Shown here: piece after piece, positions 4,268-17,251 of the stretch | How the letters are laid out: each line of letters begins with the position of its first letter | Position numbering within the stretch: position 1 is the stretch's first letter | NCBI GenBank assembly: GCA_019347715.1 | Contig: JAHWKU010000011.1 | Location: forward strand, 1 to 64,000 | Source: Actinomycetota bacterium | GTDB lineage: Bacteria > Actinomycetota > CADDZG01 > JAHWKV01 | Reading direction: 5' to 3' | DNA: 64,000 bases | The notes under the pieces: model-generated | The model's input: the letters and a program-made list of their open reading frames with translations, nothing else | Database searches by the model: none | What the model was told of the DNA's origin: nothing | Made by a program: the position numbers and the translations under genes

Positions 4268-5128
4268 ATGAACGCTCCAGATTTCAAGCCGGACCCCACA
4301 CTATTTCCTTTCGAGTCAAAGTGGTTCGAGAGCAGCGTCGGAAGGATCCATTACATCGACGAAGGCAGTGGTACACCGATCATCCTGTTCCACGGTCAGC
4401 CGACATGGAGCTTTCTCTATAGAAAGATCGTGGAGAGGCTCGCTGACGGGTTCCGATGCATTGCGCCCGATTATCCGGGCTTCGGATTGTCAGTCCGTCC
4501 AGCTGAATACCAATACACGCCAGCGGAACACGCCACAGTGATCGGAGAACTGGTGGACGCTCTGGAACTCGACGGCTTCCTGATCATGGGGCAGGACTGG
4601 GGAGGACCGATCGGCCTATCGATTGCAGGGGATCGATCAGAACAGGTGAAGGGCTTGGTTCTAGGCAACACCTGGTTCTGGCCGGTGTCCCTTAGCGCAC
4701 GGATATTCAGCACGATTATGTCGACAGGGTTCATGCAGCACCAGATCGTCGAGAAGAACTTCTTCGTCGAAAAGATCATGCCCTTCGCCATGAAAAAAAA
4801 GCTGACTGAAGATGAGTTCGATCATTACCGAAAGGCGCAGCCGACCCCTGAGCTTCGAACGGGACTAGGCGAGTTCCCTAGACAACTTACTCGCTCGGAG
4901 TCCTTCCTCGAGAATCTCGAGAAAAGGGTGTTATCACAGCTTGCATCGAAGCCGACCTTGCTGACATGGGGAATGGGGGATATGGCGTTTAGACCTCGCC
5001 AATATATTCCGCAGTTGCGGATGCGGATGCCCCAAGCAGAAGTGGTGGAGCTACGGCGTGCCAAGCATTACATCCAGGAGGACGCACCGGACGAAATCGC
5101 GGGAGCCATTCGAGGAAAGTTCGGGTAG
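4268..5128 (+). CDS. Haloalkane dehalogenase-like alpha/beta hydrolase
   Basis: 286 residues of alpha/beta-hydrolase fold. The oxyanion-loop motif HGQPTWSF (42-49), nucleophile Asp110 in GQDWGG, a cap domain (about 140-205) and the C-terminal catalytic His in AKHYIQED are the pattern of haloalkane dehalogenases, where the nucleophile is Asp followed by a halide-binding Trp. The second halide ligand position is Gln instead of the usual Asn, so the natural substrate is uncertain. Members hydrolyse carbon-halogen bonds to alcohols in the cytoplasm. It diverges from Sec-AhpD over a 92-base intergenic region. Confidence 0.8.
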   Translation: MNAPDFKPDPTLFPFESKWFESSVGRIHYIDEGSGTPIILFHGQPTWSFLYRKIVERLADGFRCIAPDYPGFGLSVRPAEYQYTPAEHATVIGELVDALELDGFLIMGQDWGGPIGLSIAGDRSEQVKGLVLGNTWFWPVSLSARIFSTIMSTGFMQHQIVEKNFFVEKIMPFAMKKKLTEDEFDHYRKAQPTPELRTGLGEFPRQLTRSESFLENLEKRVLSQLASKPTLLTWGMGDMAFRPRQYIPQLRMRMPQAEVVELRRAKHYIQEDAPDEIAGAIRGKFG

Positions 5129-7301: not shown

Positions 7302-8495
7302 CTAACGGATGATCTTGGTATCGAGCAGGAATGCCGCCCATGCGAACCAGAAAGTATCCACGTGCTCGATCGGTTGAAGCTTCTCGCCGCGCTTCGGTCC
7401 AGCCACCGCATTTCCCAAAATGTCCCACTTGGTGCCGGTCAGGGAGTCGACGAATAATCCTCCTTGCGACATGAACTTCGAAGCTCTTCGGTCTACCGAA
7501 GCCTTGAAGACCCCCGTCTCACCTACGTCCTTGCCCTCGGGAATCTCGGAGGTGTCGAGGGCGGAGGCCGTCCCCGGGCGGGCAAACACTACGATCGATT
7601 GACCTGCCAGCTCTAAGTGCATCACTTTCTTCTTAATCAGAGTGTCGAGCACAACGGCGGCACTCTGTTCCTCCACTCGAATGCCGACCACCCGAGTCAT
7701 CGCCGGCATCCTTCCGTCGGTTTCACCCTCGAAGAGAAACGGCCTCTTCTCACGGTCGTCATATCCAACGTACGGGTTACGGCCGTAGTCCCGATCGAAC
7801 CCCGTGTTCTTGCTGAGAACCCACCCGTCCGGATTCGCGTTTCTCCAACTAGCCCACGACACGGTGCTGAGCGGATGTATTTCAAGGGTAGTTCCCGTCA
7901 ATCTGCCGGCGATGGCCTTGCCTTCGAACTGGCTCCAAAGCGATTCGGTCTGCCGGTCGTACATCACGAGAGCGGAGTTGTATAGCTTCCCCGAGGTTCC
8001 GAAGTCGACGATCCTCTCGCCGACGCGGCGATCGAAAGCGGTAGCCGAATTGCACAGAGGGCAGTAGGTCACCGTTACCGGCACCTTTCCCACGGTGTCG
8101 TTCACTATCTCGTGCCAGGTAAGGATCTGAGTAGGGTATGCCCTGTTTTCGCCCCCGAGTTCCAACGCCACGACGGGCTCTCTGTCCTTTAGCCACTCGA
8201 CTTCAGAGGTCCGGTTGAACTTTGGGCGATCGATCGGAGGAATCCCGTCGGGGGGAGGACCGCCCGGGATGATCTTCGATGGATCGACAAGCGGCTCTGG
8301 GAGGTCTGGACCGGAAGGGTCCTGGAGGGCGGAAGGGCCGTTCTCTTTCGGGCTCGAAGCTGCTTGAGGAAGTTCGACATCTCGCGCCTCCGGCGACTTC
8401 CCAGGGGTGGACACTCTGGAACACGAGGCGGCGAACAGAACGAAAAGAATCAGAGAAGCCGTGAGACGCGGCTGCCTTCCAATTTGCAGAGTCAC
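7302..8495 (-). CDS. DUF3179 domain lipoprotein
   Basis: 397 residues. The N-terminal signal peptide ends in a lipobox (LFAASC), followed by a Pro/Ser-rich linker (about 28-95) and a DUF3179 domain with the conserved blocks YPTQILTWHEIVNDTVG, VTYCPLCNSATAFDR and DFGTSGKLYNSALVMYD. The role of this exported family is not defined, but the CPLC pair suits the redox setting. The GTG start overlaps the upstream SRPBCC stop (GTGA), so the two are coupled and share a SigR-type promoter. Confidence 0.85.
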   Translation of the reverse strand: MTLQIGRQPRLTASLILFVLFAASCSRVSTPGKSPEARDVELPQAASSPKENGPSALQDPSGPDLPEPLVDPSKIIPGGPPPDGIPPIDRPKFNRTSEVEWLKDREPVVALELGGENRAYPTQILTWHEIVNDTVGKVPVTVTYCPLCNSATAFDRRVGERIVDFGTSGKLYNSALVMYDRQTESLWSQFEGKAIAGRLTGTTLEIHPLSTVSWASWRNANPDGWVLSKNTGFDRDYGRNPYVGYDDREKRPFLFEGETDGRMPAMTRVVGIRVEEQSAAVVLDTLIKKKVMHLELAGQSIVVFARPGTASALDTSEIPEGKDVGETGVFKASVDRRASKFMSQGGLFVDSLTGTKWDILGNAVAGPKRGEKLQPIEHVDTFWFAWAAFLLDTKIIR

Positions 8496-8830
8496 CTGTT
8501 AGGAGACCGAGCTTTTGGCGGGTGGATCTTGCTGCGGCTCGCCCTCTGGTACCTGAGCTCAGAGTTATCGCCTCGGGGAACGACTTCGATCTCTTCCTCA
8601 ACAAACGGCAGCGGACCCTCGAGCCAGCGGTACTTGATCATGGGGGGGTCTAGCACGACGAGCTCTACGGTTCGCACTTTCTTGCCGGCTGCTTCGAGCT
8701 CGAACTCGACTGTCTTTTCCCCATCGCGAGATTCCAGTGTCTTCCCGGCCGAGGAGACAACCTCATAAGGCAGGGGTGCCGGAGCCCTGACCGCCAACTG
8801 CTGACTCTTGAGCTCTCTAGGCCGACGCAT
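8492..8830 (-). CDS. Short SRPBCC (START-like) protein
   Basis: 112 residues that match the first two thirds of a polyketide-cyclase/START-like fold (VRAPAPLPYEVVSSAGKT, then LDPPMIKYRWLEGPLPFVEE). The usual last strand and long C-terminal helix are missing; after LRYQ the sequence becomes a basic, Pro-rich end. This could be an old frameshift near 8540 or a genuinely short form. It is coupled to DUF3179 by a GTGA overlap. The start at ATG 8830 has a GGGAGG ribosome site that can be sequestered in a hairpin. Confidence 0.6.
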   Translation of the reverse strand: MRRPRELKSQQLAVRAPAPLPYEVVSSAGKTLESRDGEKTVEFELEAAGKKVRTVELVVLDPPMIKYRWLEGPLPFVEEEIEVVPRGDNSELRYQRASRSKIHPPKARSPNR

Positions 8831-12333: not shown

Positions 12334-12678
12334 ATGGGAACTACGCGAAAGGTCACTGACGGTGACTTCGAAAATCAGGTGCTGAGCTCGGAGAGACCAG
12401 TACTGGTGGACTTCTATGCCGACTGGTGCGGACCGTGCCACATGGTAGCTCCAGAGGTGGAGGCGATTGCCGATGAGATGAATGACCGTCTCAAGGTTGT
12501 GAAGCTGGATATAGATGCCAACCCCAAAACGGCTGAGAGATTCGGCGTAATGTCGATCCCGACGCTCGTGCTCTTCAGCGGTGGAGGAAATGAGGAGTTG
12601 AGGATCATAGGAGCACGCCACCGAGACGACCTGCGGAAGGAAATTGAACCAAAGCTATCCGCAGGCGCGACCGGGTGA
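12334..12678 (+). CDS. trxA: Thioredoxin
   Basis: 114 residues, full length for thioredoxin, with active site ADWCGPC at about 30-36 and the cis-Pro loop MSIPTLVLF. A cytoplasmic disulfide reductant. The SigR-type promoter upstream matches the known control of thioredoxin genes by SigR in Streptomyces. No thioredoxin reductase gene is in the window. Confidence 0.93.
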   Translation: MGTTRKVTDGDFENQVLSSERPVLVDFYADWCGPCHMVAPEVEAIADEMNDRLKVVKLDIDANPKTAERFGVMSIPTLVLFSGGGNEELRIIGARHRDDLRKEIEPKLSAGATG

Positions 12679-12966: not shown

Positions 12967-13716
12967 TCAAACTAAACGGAATCCAGGCCGCAGGCCCTGG
13001 ATCGTCGCCAGGTAGAAGAAGTAAGCAGCGATCCCAAGAAGAAAGAACGATGTGAGGCGTTGGGAGATACGAAGAGCGCGCGGGCTAACTTTCCATCCAC
13101 TCATGACGAACCAGACCAGACCCACGAGGAAGCCGGCATGCCCGATGCCGAAGGCGAGCATGACAAGGGCGCTGTAGATGGTGTTTCCGAATGTTGCCGC
13201 TGATGCCGCCACACCGATCACCACCCCGGCGCATGCAGGACAGTTCACCAATCCTGCCGGGATTCCGGCAAGGAAAGCGCCAAGAGCGGTGAGGTTTCTC
13301 CTTGTCGGCATCGCGCAGGCAGCACAGAAGGACGACGGCGTCAGCAGCAGGAACAGTGCGAATCCAGATATGAGAATCCCGAGTGTCAGATAGCCAATTC
13401 CCGAATAGGGCCTGAGAATCGATTCGGTGAGGTTATCTATTCGACTGGCGACGACTCCCACAGCGGTATACACCACTACCATTCCGGCTCCGAAAGCCGC
13501 GGCCACCTTGACTGCGCCGCCCCGCGCGGCCAGTGCCCCGGCACTTCCGAACCCGATAAAAGTGCCGAGTATCGGAAGCGCGGCGGGGTTCGCGCTCAAA
13601 AGCGCGCCCATGATTACCGCCACCGGGATCCCGAGCCACCAAGTGCTCTCGATCAGGCTAAAAGGATCAATGTCGCACCTCCGCCGAGTTCGTCCCTTAG
13701 GAGAACCCGAAAACAT
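12967..13716 (-). CDS. CcdA/DsbD-like membrane protein with cysteine pairs
   Basis: About 249 residues with six to seven membrane helices. Two Cys pairs (FCAACAMP and VNCPACAG) and a Pro/Gly-rich layout suggest a CcdA/DsbD-type carrier of electrons or metal across the membrane. The start is uncertain. ATG 13716 has an AAAGGAA site, but a SigR-type promoter (13704-13729) overlaps it; if that is used, translation would begin lower, for example at an ATT (13671) behind GGAGGTG or at a GTG further in. It is divergent from the HMA gene. Confidence 0.7.
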   Translation of the reverse strand: MFSGSPKGRTRRRCDIDPFSLIESTWWLGIPVAVIMGALLSANPAALPILGTFIGFGSAGALAARGGAVKVAAAFGAGMVVVYTAVGVVASRIDNLTESILRPYSGIGYLTLGILISGFALFLLLTPSSFCAACAMPTRRNLTALGAFLAGIPAGLVNCPACAGVVIGVAASAATFGNTIYSALVMLAFGIGHAGFLVGLVWFVMSGWKVSPRALRISQRLTSFFLLGIAAYFFYLATIQGLRPGFRLV

Positions 13717-13729
13717 CGAATTCAATTCC
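13704..13729 (-). promoter_or_regulatory. SigR-type promoter motif of the CcdA/DsbD-like gene
   Basis: GGAAT (13729-13725), 16 bases, GGGTT (13708-13704). It coincides with the longest plausible start codon, so either the gene starts further down or this copy is not used. Confidence 0.5.
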
Positions 13730-13752
13730 TTTGAGACTCCAAGGTTTAATCT
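13721..13752 (+). promoter_or_regulatory. MerR-type promoter/operator of the HMA-CcdA operon
   Basis: TTCAAT (13721-13726), 20-base spacer, TAATCT (13747-13752). The spacer holds the near-palindrome CCTTTGAGACTCCAAGG (13728-13744). An over-long spacer with a central dyad is the hallmark of MerR-activated promoters, and the CTCCAAGGT half is shared with the promoter at 14905-14936. Confidence 0.4.
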
Positions 13753-13758
13753 ATCTGC

Positions 13759-13977
13759 ATGAATTTGAAGACAGTCGAGCTTTCGGCGGACATGAATTGC
13801 CGGGCTTGTCAGTACCGGATTACCGGAGCCCTGAAACAACAGGATGGGGTCAAGTCCAATAAGGCGGACTTCCGGACCCAGAAAGTAACCATTGAGTTCG
13901 ATCCGTCACAGATAGACGAGACCGAACTCCGCCAAGTTATCGACAACGCCCTTAACCACGGCCTCTCGCTCGAGTAG
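13759..13977 (+). CDS. Heavy-metal-associated (HMA) domain protein
   Basis: 72 residues forming one HMA ferredoxin-like domain with metal site MNCRACQYRI at 12-21. It is a MerP/CopZ-like soluble carrier, probably for copper given the P1B ATPase nearby. Six bases separate it from the Sec-CcdA gene, indicating one operon. Confidence 0.88.
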   Translation: MNLKTVELSADMNCRACQYRITGALKQQDGVKSNKADFRTQKVTIEFDPSQIDETELRQVIDNALNHGLSLE

Positions 13978-13983
13978 CGCTTC

Positions 13984-14832
13984 GTGCCTTTCCTTGGCTC
14001 CCGTCCCGGTCGAAGATACGCCTTACTGGTCGCGGTTACTGCAGGGGTGTCTGTTGTCGGTTATGCGGGCTATGTTCTCTACCCGCGCTTCGACCTTCCG
14101 GCTGTAGCTGGAGGAAGTCTGTTCCTTCTCGCGGGCGCGGCTGGTGTGGCTTCGTTCTTCTCTCCTTGCTCGTTTCCTTTGGCCGTGACCATCCTCGCGC
14201 GTGAAGCGACAGGTAAAGACGACGCGCCCTCCGTCACTCGCCTCACGCTGTGGGTCGGACTCGGAGCGCTTACATTCTTGCTTCTCGCAGGCCTACTGAT
14301 CGCCGCCGGTGCCGGAGCGTTCTTCAAGCAGGTGACCTTCACGAGCACTGCAGGCATCACGATCAGGACGGTAGTGGGATCGCTTCTTATCCTTCTCGGC
14401 TTGATTCAGCTCAATGTGCTGCCCGTTTCCTTTCATCGCGTAGAGGAGGCGGCGCGTCCCCTTCTCGCCAGACAGGCCAGGCTGCGTAGCAGTAAACCCG
14501 CACTCGCCTTTGGTTTGTTCGGATTCGGTTATCTTCTCGCAGGCTTCGGTTGAACCGGGCCGATTCTGGCCGGTCTGGCTACGCACGCGCTGACGGTGGG
14601 AGGGGCCTCATCCGCCTTGATTGCATTCATCGTTTCTGGAGTAGTGCTTGCTGCAATGTTCGTCGGTCTATCGTTTGTTGTGGGATCGGTGCAGGAGAAG
14701 ACCTTGCAGCGGATCCGAACCAGCGCTCGAGACGTCAAGATGTGGGGCGGGTGGATCCTCATCACAGTTGGTTCCTGGTTCATAGTGCTCGCGATCTGGG
14801 CAGAGTTCTTCGCCAAAATCTTTCCCGTCTAG
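13984..14832 (+). CDS. CcdA-like thiol/disulfide membrane transporter, selenoprotein (Sec190)
   Basis: Reading through the TGA at 14551-14553 gives 282 residues with six to seven membrane helices. The first conserved CcdA motif is ASFFSPCSFPLA (normal Cys). The second, usually GxxCTGP, here reads LLAGFG-U-TGPILAGL. After the TGA the frame runs on through two further helices to a normal stop. CcdA/DsbD proteins pass electrons from cytoplasmic thioredoxin outward through exactly this Cys pair, so a Cys-Sec pair inside the membrane is implied. The operon partner is the HMA protein. The stem-loop after the TGA has the loop GGUCU, very like that of E. coli fdhF. I know of no described Sec form of this family. 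Confidence 0.85.
14567..14581 (+). promoter_or_regulatory. SECIS-like stem-loop of the Sec-CcdA gene
   Basis: Fourteen nt after the TGA: UGGCC-GGUCU-GGCUA, a 5-bp stem (one G-U pair) with a GGUCU loop. Distance and loop agree with the other candidates. Confidence 0.65.
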
Positions 14833-15007: not shown

Positions 15008-17032
15008 ATGAGTAATCAACCCGATCATCACTCGAGCATGGTTCACGACAAGAACGACGGGCATGACCGCCATGCAGGCCACTCCGTCGATATGTTTCGA
15101 AACCGGTTCTGGGTTTGCCTTCTGCTTACAGTGCCGATCCTCATCTACGCCGAGATGCTGTGGCACTGGCTAGGTGTTCGTCCGCCGTCGCTTCCCGGCG
15201 AGAAGCTTGTGCCTTTCGCCCTCGGGTCGGTCGTCTATATCTACGGAGGCATGGTGTTCCTCCGTTCCGCACTGGGGGAGTTGCGTTCGCGAATACCAGG
15301 GATGATGACGCTCGTCTCCGTCGGTATCACTGCCGCCTACGTCTACAGCGCGGCCACCACGTTCGTTCTTCCGGGCGAAGGCTTCTACTGGGAGCTTGCG
15401 ACTTTGGTCGACATCATGCTCCTTGGTCACTGGATCGAGATGCGCGCCATCGGCAGGGCGAGCGGCGCCCTGGCAGAACTGGCCAAGTTGATTCCCGACA
15501 CGGCCGAGCGATTGAACGACGGAGGAACAGAAGAAGTCTCGGTTTCTGAATTGTCCAAAGGGGACGTTGTTCTGGTTCGCCCAGGCTCGCGGGTCCCCGC
15601 GGACGGGGAGGTGGCAGACGGCGAATCTCATCTTGACGAGTCGATGCTCACGGGGGAGTCCAAGCCGGTTCGTAAGAAGGCGGGCGATCGGGTGGTTGCC
15701 GGATCAGTCAACCAGGAAGGATCTCTACGAGTACAGGTCACCAAGGTTGGAGAGGAAACGGCACTTGCAGGGATCGCCCGCCTAGTCGAAGAAGCCCAGG
15801 CTTCCAAGTCGAGAGCGCAGGCCATCGCAGATCGCGCGGCCATGATTCTCACCTACGTTGCGGTCGGAGCTGGTGGACTTACCGCCATCGCCTGGGCGCT
15901 CGGTACGCAGCAGAGTACAGATTTCGTAATCGAGCGCTCAGTCACGGTCATCGTCATCGCATGCCCTCATGCTTTGGGTCTGGCGGTTCCACTAGTCATT
16001 GCTATCTCGACAAGTTTGGGAGCCCGAAACGGCCTCCTCGTGCGAAATCGTCTGGCGTTGGAGCAGGCGCGCAATCTCGATGTGGTTGTGTTCGACAAAA
16101 CCGGAACCCTGACGCGAGGCGAGCTTGGTGTCGTTGATATCTCGACAACTGATGGGACCTCACAGGACTCGGCACTCGAACTGGCCGCGGGTTTGGAGGC
16201 CGACTCCGAGCACTCTCTAGCCCGTGCGATTGTTAGCGAGACGCAAGCCCGAAAATTGACACCTAGGTCCATAGAGGGTTTCGAAGCCATAGCCGGAAAG
16301 GGAGTAAGAGGGAGGATCGAAGGAAAAGATGCTTACGTCGGAGGACCTCGACTCCTGGAGAGTTTGGATGTGAATAAGGACAAGGAACTCGAGAAATGGG
16401 CTTCGAAGCAGTCGGCCGATGGCAAAACAGTTGTGTACCTTGTCCAGGATGGCTCTACTGTCGCTGCATTCGCGTTGGCTGACGTTATTCGAGATGAATC
16501 CAGAGAAGCTGTAGCCAATCTCAAGAAAATGGGAATGAAAGTCGCCATGATCACAGGTGACTCCGAGGACGTGGCGCGCTGGGTCTCCGACCAACTCGAA
16601 ATCGACGACTTCTTCGCGGAGGTGCTTCCGGAACACAAGTCGGAGAAGGTCAAGGATCTCCAAGCTCAGGGCAAACAAGTGGCGATGGTTGGCGATGGGG
16701 TGAACGATGCTCCTGCCCTCGCGCAGGCCAACGTGGGGATAGCCATAGGCGCCGGGACGGATGTGGCGATCGAAACTGCGGACGTCGTTCTGGTAAGCGA
16801 TGATCCTCGGGATGTTGGCAGCGTGATCGAGCTCTCACACGCGAGCTACCGAAAGATGCTTCAAAACTTGGGATGGGCAACCGGGTACAACGTGGTCGCC
16901 CTGCCGCTTGCAGCAGGCGTTCTGGCGCCTATAGGAGTGATTCTGGCCCCGGCCATTGGGGCCGTTCTAATGTCCATCAGTACAGTCGTGGTCGCGCTCA
17001 ATGCCCAGCTTCTTAGGAGACTGTCTCTATGA
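15008..17032 (+). CDS. CPH-type P1B heavy-metal ATPase (CopB-like)
   Basis: 674 residues. A His-rich N-terminus (HDRHAGHSVD) replaces the HMA domain. Then follow membrane helices, the actuator motif TGES, the metal-transport motif ACPHALGLAVPL (near residue 318), the phosphorylation site DKTGTLTRG, TGDSED and GDGVNDAPAL. The CPH motif and His-rich tail mark the P1B-3 (CopB) subgroup, associated with copper or silver export. It is preceded by a MerR-type promoter and follows the HMA/Sec-CcdA pair. The YHS protein downstream is likely co-transcribed. Confidence 0.92.
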   Translation: MSNQPDHHSSMVHDKNDGHDRHAGHSVDMFRNRFWVCLLLTVPILIYAEMLWHWLGVRPPSLPGEKLVPFALGSVVYIYGGMVFLRSALGELRSRIPGMMTLVSVGITAAYVYSAATTFVLPGEGFYWELATLVDIMLLGHWIEMRAIGRASGALAELAKLIPDTAERLNDGGTEEVSVSELSKGDVVLVRPGSRVPADGEVADGESHLDESMLTGESKPVRKKAGDRVVAGSVNQEGSLRVQVTKVGEETALAGIARLVEEAQASKSRAQAIADRAAMILTYVAVGAGGLTAIAWALGTQQSTDFVIERSVTVIVIACPHALGLAVPLVIAISTSLGARNGLLVRNRLALEQARNLDVVVFDKTGTLTRGELGVVDISTTDGTSQDSALELAAGLEADSEHSLARAIVSETQARKLTPRSIEGFEAIAGKGVRGRIEGKDAYVGGPRLLESLDVNKDKELEKWASKQSADGKTVVYLVQDGSTVAAFALADVIRDESREAVANLKKMGMKVAMITGDSEDVARWVSDQLEIDDFFAEVLPEHKSEKVKDLQAQGKQVAMVGDGVNDAPALAQANVGIAIGAGTDVAIETADVVLVSDDPRDVGSVIELSHASYRKMLQNLGWATGYNVVALPLAAGVLAPIGVILAPAIGAVLMSISTVVVALNAQLLRRLSL

Positions 17033-17098
17033 CTCTGCTAGTACTGTTGACCACTGTTGTTATCTTGTCCAAGCCACCTAATAAGAAGGAGGATGAAT

Positions 17099-17251
17099 AT
17101 GGAAATTGATCCTGTCTGCAAGATGGAGGTCGACCCGGAGAATCCACCGGGAGGTCGGACAGAACATGATGGCAAGACCTATTACTTCTGCAGCCCCGGT
17201 TGTCGCAAGAGTTTCGAGGATGATCCAGCGAAATATCTGACGTCTAACTGA
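17099..17251 (+). CDS. YHS domain metal-binding protein
   Basis: 50 residues covering one YHS domain: DPVCKMEVDPE, then YYFCSPGCRKSFEDDPAKYL. Such domains bind heavy metals and often accompany copper ATPases. The second of two ATGs (17099) is chosen because the AGGAGG at 17087-17092 then has a 6-base spacing. Confidence 0.88.
   Translation: MEIDPVCKMEVDPENPPGGRTEHDGKTYYFCSPGCRKSFEDDPAKYLTSN

Follow-up and report, generated by a model that had tools for sequence, protein, structure and literature searches.

The question raised by this locus is whether a TGA codon that falls at a conserved cysteine position of a putative membrane electron carrier is a stop signal or is read as selenocysteine (Sec) and, in the latter case, what a membrane-embedded Sec could be used for. 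The window, that is, the whole stretch of DNA analysed, comprises 64,000 nucleotides of an Actinomycetota bacterium (GCA_019347715.1, contig JAHWKU010000011.1, positions 1 to 64,000).

A CcdA-family frame with TGA at a conserved cysteine position

The frame under study and its two key codons are the following:
13984-14832, + strand: predicted CcdA-family selenoprotein gene, 282 aa including Sec190, with GTG start and TAG stop (14830-14832), translated with TGA as U
14167-14169, + strand: codon for Cys62 in FFSPC, the first of the two conserved intramembrane cysteines; no aligned member, a canonical CcdA included, departs from it
14551-14553, + strand: UGA predicted to be read as Sec, residue 190, at the second conserved intramembrane Cys position; TGA in 18 loci, TGC or TGT in three

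The TGA at codon 190 is the sole interruption of this frame and is followed by 92 further codons. In the translated protein it lies in the motif FGYLLAGFG-U-TGPILAGL, and the first conserved cysteine lies in FFSPCSFP. A profile built from the family matched the CcdA structure 5vkv (hmmsearch, E=4.6e-14), with Cys62 and residue 190 aligned with both intramembrane cysteines of that protein, and in the alignment C62 and C/U190 were invariant, canonical CcdA rows included. The preliminary description of this DNA, which had identified the protein as CcdA-like and the TGA as taking the place of its second conserved intramembrane Cys, was thus confirmed; it was also right that the residue in FFSPCSFP is Cys, but the number that it gave, "Cys56-type", was slightly off, as the residue is 62.

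No family of NCBIfam release 20 or Pfam was assigned to the window protein, and Pfam DsbD_TM gave no match to it and remained below the cut-off in one relative (L055, 21.6 vs 27.1 bits). An AlphaFold model (pLDDT 73.6) had 5vkv as its top Foldseek match, with a probability of 0.99 but with E=0.033 and TM scores of 0.33-0.39. Positive charges cluster on the predicted cytosolic side, with 6 K/R in loop 3 and 5 in loop 5. Given this positive-inside pattern and the extra first helix, the N-terminus would be cytosolic, as would the heavy-metal-associated (HMA) domain that is fused there in relatives. Compared with the CcdA/DsbD transmembrane domain (PF02683; 5vkv), the window protein shares the CcdA core, the PC motif in TM1, the aligned TM4 position and a nearby thioredoxin gene, but it differs in having Sec for the TM4 Cys, an extra N-terminal helix, an HMA domain fused or adjacent and a score below the Pfam cut-off.

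Codon 190 is TGA or Cys across at least two phyla

A scan of GTDB species genomes yielded four relatives (47-57% identity), all with TGA at codon 190, from genomes titled Actinomycetota and Thermomicrobiales/Chloroflexia MAGs; one of them, L019, carries an upstream frameshift besides the TGA. Further members were collected from kin genomes and two phylum samples. The window genome and L017 (titled Actinomycetota) belong to one phylum, and the sample centred on L019 represents a different one. Altogether, TGA was found at codon 190 in 18 loci, including the window, from 16 genomes and at least two phyla, and three relatives have Cys at this position: L049/L058 (TGC), L085 (TGT) and L088 (TGT). 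No residue other than Sec or Cys was found among these 18 TGA loci and three Cys relatives. The preliminary description had proposed to look in metagenomes for UGA-containing homologs followed by a stem-loop; the genome searches recovered such homologs, with the hairpin conserved, and a sense codon other than Cys, which it had regarded as contrary evidence, did not appear in any relative found. A search using the window protein gave no match on plasmids.

The region downstream of the TGA is also conserved in length: of the 14 TGA loci in the comparison, 13 have exactly 92 codons after it; the exception is L056, in which the frame is lost soon after the TGA. In the more divergent members L086 and L087, 96 codons follow. 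Family fragments comprising only the C-terminal or the N-terminal part were seen in G016:C258 and G317:C18, respectively, and represent contig-edge or decayed copies.

In the phylogenetic tree, the Cys form L058 is nested in the Sec clade with a support of 99/100, on a long branch that makes its exact placement unsure. This locus retains GCCGGTCTGGCC, likely a relic of a SECIS element. Its position inside the Sec clade, together with this sequence, suggests a Sec-to-Cys change in the L058 lineage.

A SECIS-like hairpin downstream of the UGA

Two nested RNA features were delimited after the UGA:
14554-14597, + strand: probable bacterial SECIS hairpin with a possible lower stem; -15.2 kcal/mol if the apical stem is enforced, -18.0 for the free optimum, which is a different fold
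14567-14581, + strand: SECIS apical stem-loop UGGCC-GGUCU-GGCUA, loop at 14572-14576, 18 nt after the UGA; codons 195-198 synonymously frozen, 98.8% of pair cells formed

The consensus across members is UGGCC-GGUCU-GGCYR. Codons 195-198 read CTG GCC GGT CTG in all 11 members first aligned, even though GGT accounts for just 19% of the Gly codons in these genes. Out of 66 invariant degenerate columns, only six use a single codon, and four of those six lie next to each other, at the hairpin codons 195-198. Synonymous identity was 46% overall and fell to 18-36% at codons 191-192 and 202-203. Where codon 195 does change, to TTG (Leu) in L087 and to GTG (Val) in L086, the stem bases TG are retained. 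In 17 sequences, 98.8% of the pair cells were formed, vs at most 52% for a slid hairpin. Changes within the stem were one-sided (GC to GU, UG to UA), with no two-sided compensatory change in the 17 sequences.

The loop GGUCU, starting 18 nt after the UGA, resembles that of the E. coli fdhF SECIS, as had been noted in the preliminary description; the fdhF element, which carries a GGUCU loop about 18 nt after its UGA, has a different stem sequence. A stem of 5-7 bp (with one mismatch in L055), this loop and this spacing all fall within the published bSECIS model, in which the loop has 3-9 nt with G at its first two positions, the stem has 4-16 bp and the spacing is 16-37 nt (PMC13188914). With respect to the bSECIS energy criterion (at most -7.5 kcal/mol), the 22 nt apical part reached this value in 11 of 14 members, the others being the window (-5.8), L018 (-7.4) and L055 (-7.1).

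Folding of single sequences was less favourable. For the window RNA by itself, a competing hairpin is the free optimum (-18.0 kcal/mol, against -15.2 when the SECIS stem is enforced), and the 50 nt region does not exceed its shuffles in stability (z -0.20); as single-sequence z-scores do not back the hairpin, the case for it rests on conservation. The competing hairpin, which pairs columns 5-12 with 21-28, was considered and rejected as less conserved, with 86.8% of cells paired vs 98.8% and one pair broken in 12 of the 17 sequences. Rfam, at gathering scores, reported no RNA in the window.

Selenocysteine machinery in the host genomes

The window genome encodes SelB (335 bits, profile), a tRNA-Sec (84 bits), SelD with an in-frame TGA (388 bits, profile) and, directly upstream of selB, a SelA-like ORF identified by reading rather than by profile. 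SelB was above the cut-off in 13 of the 14 member genomes checked, the exception being 83% complete, with a baseline of 213/394 in the phylum sample, and SelD was found in all 20 member genomes. The SelD gene L090 (G000:C28) has its TGA in GUACK, with a strong hairpin, GGCGCAGGUCCUGCGCC, after it, and is a second selenoprotein gene of this genome.

Taken together, these data make it very probable that the window gene encodes a selenoprotein, namely, a membrane protein of the CcdA/DsbD family that has an additional helix at its N-terminus and in which the second conserved Cys, in TM4, is Sec, inserted at UGA190 by SelB and the downstream SECIS. Two other readings of the codon were weighed. Under the standard code UGA terminates translation, and GTG and TTG codons occur further on, so that the gene could be broken or end at codon 189, the rest being a relic or a separately started fragment; but the maintenance of the downstream part in length and sequence, the restriction of the codon to TGA or Cys across two phyla, the synonymous freeze exactly at the hairpin and the presence of Sec machinery in the genome render a true stop very unlikely. 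The open frame through the TGA would equally be expected if a variant genetic code assigned UGA to Trp or another residue. This explanation is weaker still, to the point of being almost negligible, since the host has tRNA-Sec and SelB, homologs carry Cys at the site, and several member genes terminate at a final TGA.

A gene neighbourhood pointing to soft metals

The genes surrounding the selenoprotein gene in the window include the following:
12334-12678, + strand: thioredoxin (WCGPC), possible cytosolic electron donor (TIGR01068, 111 bits)
13759-13977, + strand: HMA domain protein with CxxC (NCRAC) (Pfam HMA, 46.8 bits)
15008-17032, + strand: P1B-type heavy-metal/copper ATPase with a CPH motif and a His-rich N-terminus, CopB-like (TIGR01525, 614 bits; TIGR01511, 601 bits)
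17057-17251, + strand: YHS domain protein, probable metal-related partner (Pfam YHS, 52.5 bits)

The ATPase gene starts 176 nt downstream of the selenoprotein gene, and the cluster also holds a TlpA-like gene beside that of thioredoxin. The HMA gene is in frame with the selenoprotein gene, its TAG (13975-13977) being followed by two codons (six bases) before the GTG. In L054, a single TAG (5006-5008) splits the HMA/selenoprotein frame just as in the window; close relatives are fused, and in L055 the codon is Trp. This single TAG may reflect a gene split, a MAG error or coupling of the two genes. A second, distant CcdA-like gene (12967-13839, - strand; DsbD_TM 27.8 bits; Cys motifs FCAAC and NCPAC) adjoins the HMA gene in back-to-back orientation.

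Similar settings were found in the other loci. L017, L055, L060 and L061 encode the HMA domain and the CcdA part as a single fused frame, and the domain is fused or adjacent in 9 of the 21 loci tallied. A MerR-type regulator was located within 1.9 kb in 15 of the 21, mostly at less than 400 nt, and by score these regulators are kin of MerR, CadR, ZntR and CueR. The window copy has no adjacent MerR, and neither MerR nor HMA was found near L094 and L095. The Cys form L096 is organized as a plain merR-HMA-ccdA operon, and L063 has upstream of it a gene akin to the DF (seleno)protein family (63 bits vs a cut-off of 70). The combination of MerR, HMA and P1B ATPase points to a role in the handling of soft metals, in which the protein would reduce a metal-binding partner or pass on the metal itself.

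Further observations were made around these loci. In L058, a truncated MerA C-terminus (8366-8575; 58 bits) lies between merR and the Cys-form ccdA, possibly as the remains of a decayed mer operon. A MerA-like reductase frame with one in-frame TGA (G066:C16:200235-201584) lies beside a true MerA and could be a selenoprotein or a broken gene. DUF3179 proteins are encoded near the CcdA gene in the window (7302-8495, - strand) and in the Cys-form loci L058 and L097; the window copy has Cys, and predicted Sec forms of the DUF3179 family exist (PMC13188914).

Comparison with described selenoproteins and metal transporters

The preliminary description had stated that no Sec form of the CcdA family was known. 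This held within the sources consulted: none was found in NCBIfam release 20, among the 119 prokaryotic selenoprotein families catalogued in 2026 or in text searches of the literature; an unnoticed annotation may exist elsewhere in RefSeq. The nearest entries in the 119-family table are TsoB, MerT, SO_0444 and YeeE/YedE (PMC13188914). TsoB, a rhodanese/DsbD fusion-like selenoprotein (NF045694), is alike in having a DsbD-like part (PMC13188914, Table 1), but it differs in its UxxxxU motif with two Sec, and its profile did not match the window protein even at E=10. The MerT/CopZ fusion-like heavy metal transport selenoprotein (NF045683) and the MerT-type selenoproteins (PF02411) are similar in combining a membrane protein with HMA, Sec and a link to metals. 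However, the match to NF045683 is limited to the HMA part (22-32 bits vs a cut-off of 375), and the membrane part is here CcdA-like, not MerT-like, with no NCBIfam or Pfam match to a MerT, MerC or MerTP profile over this region. Actinomycete CcdA-type proteins annotated as mercury transporters (PMC12195606, Table 4) belong to the same family and occur in a metal-resistance setting; that table gives neither Sec nor a functional test for them. Judged from sequence, what appears to be new is a Sec variant of the known CcdA family in a conserved operon setting.

Electron transfer or metal relay

By analogy with the disulfide of CcdA, Cys62 (TM1) and Sec190 (TM4) would form a reversible selenylsulfide pair. 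Electrons from cytosolic thioredoxin would cross the membrane through this pair and would reduce thiols on a partner, extracytoplasmic or membrane-bound, within a metal-regulated system of copper or other soft-metal homeostasis. The role of electron carrier that the preliminary description assigned to the Cys-Sec pair is plausible. The whole reading, that is, a Sec-decoded CcdA-family protein whose Cys62-Sec190 pair passes electrons to a soft-metal homeostasis partner, is the one that we moderately favour, the electron transfer being deduced from the family, the conservation of the motifs and the gene neighbourhood.

The metal setting of the loci fits equally well a protein in which Sec is likewise inserted but serves, together with Cys62, to bind a soft metal (Cu+, Hg2+) and to carry it through the membrane, towards or away from the HMA domain in the cytosol, as a CcdA-fold metal permease comparable to MerT plus MerP. 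Consistent with such a relay, an HMA domain with an intact CxxC adjoins the protein or is fused at its predicted cytosolic end, MerR-type metal regulators adjoin most loci, the Cys form in L058 is preceded by the MerA remnant, and CcdA-type proteins are listed as actinomycete mercury transporters (PMC12195606, Table 4), although those names are annotation. On the other hand, Cys62 and Sec190 are exactly the CcdA redox pair, and MerA is above the cut-off in only 5 of 20 genomes and below it in the window genome (best 316 vs 454 bits). Selenols bind soft metals very tightly; this speaks for a relay, yet it could also impede release of the metal. Metal relay is accordingly a possibility to be taken seriously but not the probable one. 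Mercury uptake for MerA, in particular, was marked down because the window genome lacks a MerA above the cut-off. In its specific form, a merR-HMA-ccdA operon type with a CcdA-fold selenol gate, where Cys62 and Sec190 would pick up Cu+ or Hg2+ within the membrane and trade the ion with the HMA domain on the cytosolic side, the proposal is tentative and rather doubtful.

Implications

The selenoproteins catalogued so far are mostly soluble redox enzymes of the thiol type. A Sec within the buried CcdA redox pair would offer a direct handle on the transmembrane passage of reducing equivalents, since a selenol differs from a thiol in its lower pKa and lower potential and is amenable to tracking by selenium spectroscopy. 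If the gate reading were true, the family would include a metal-permease branch of an electron-transfer family, with the first natural Sec in its membrane-embedded pair. In addition, the conserved merR/HMA setting makes a role in metal homeostasis for part of the CcdA family testable.
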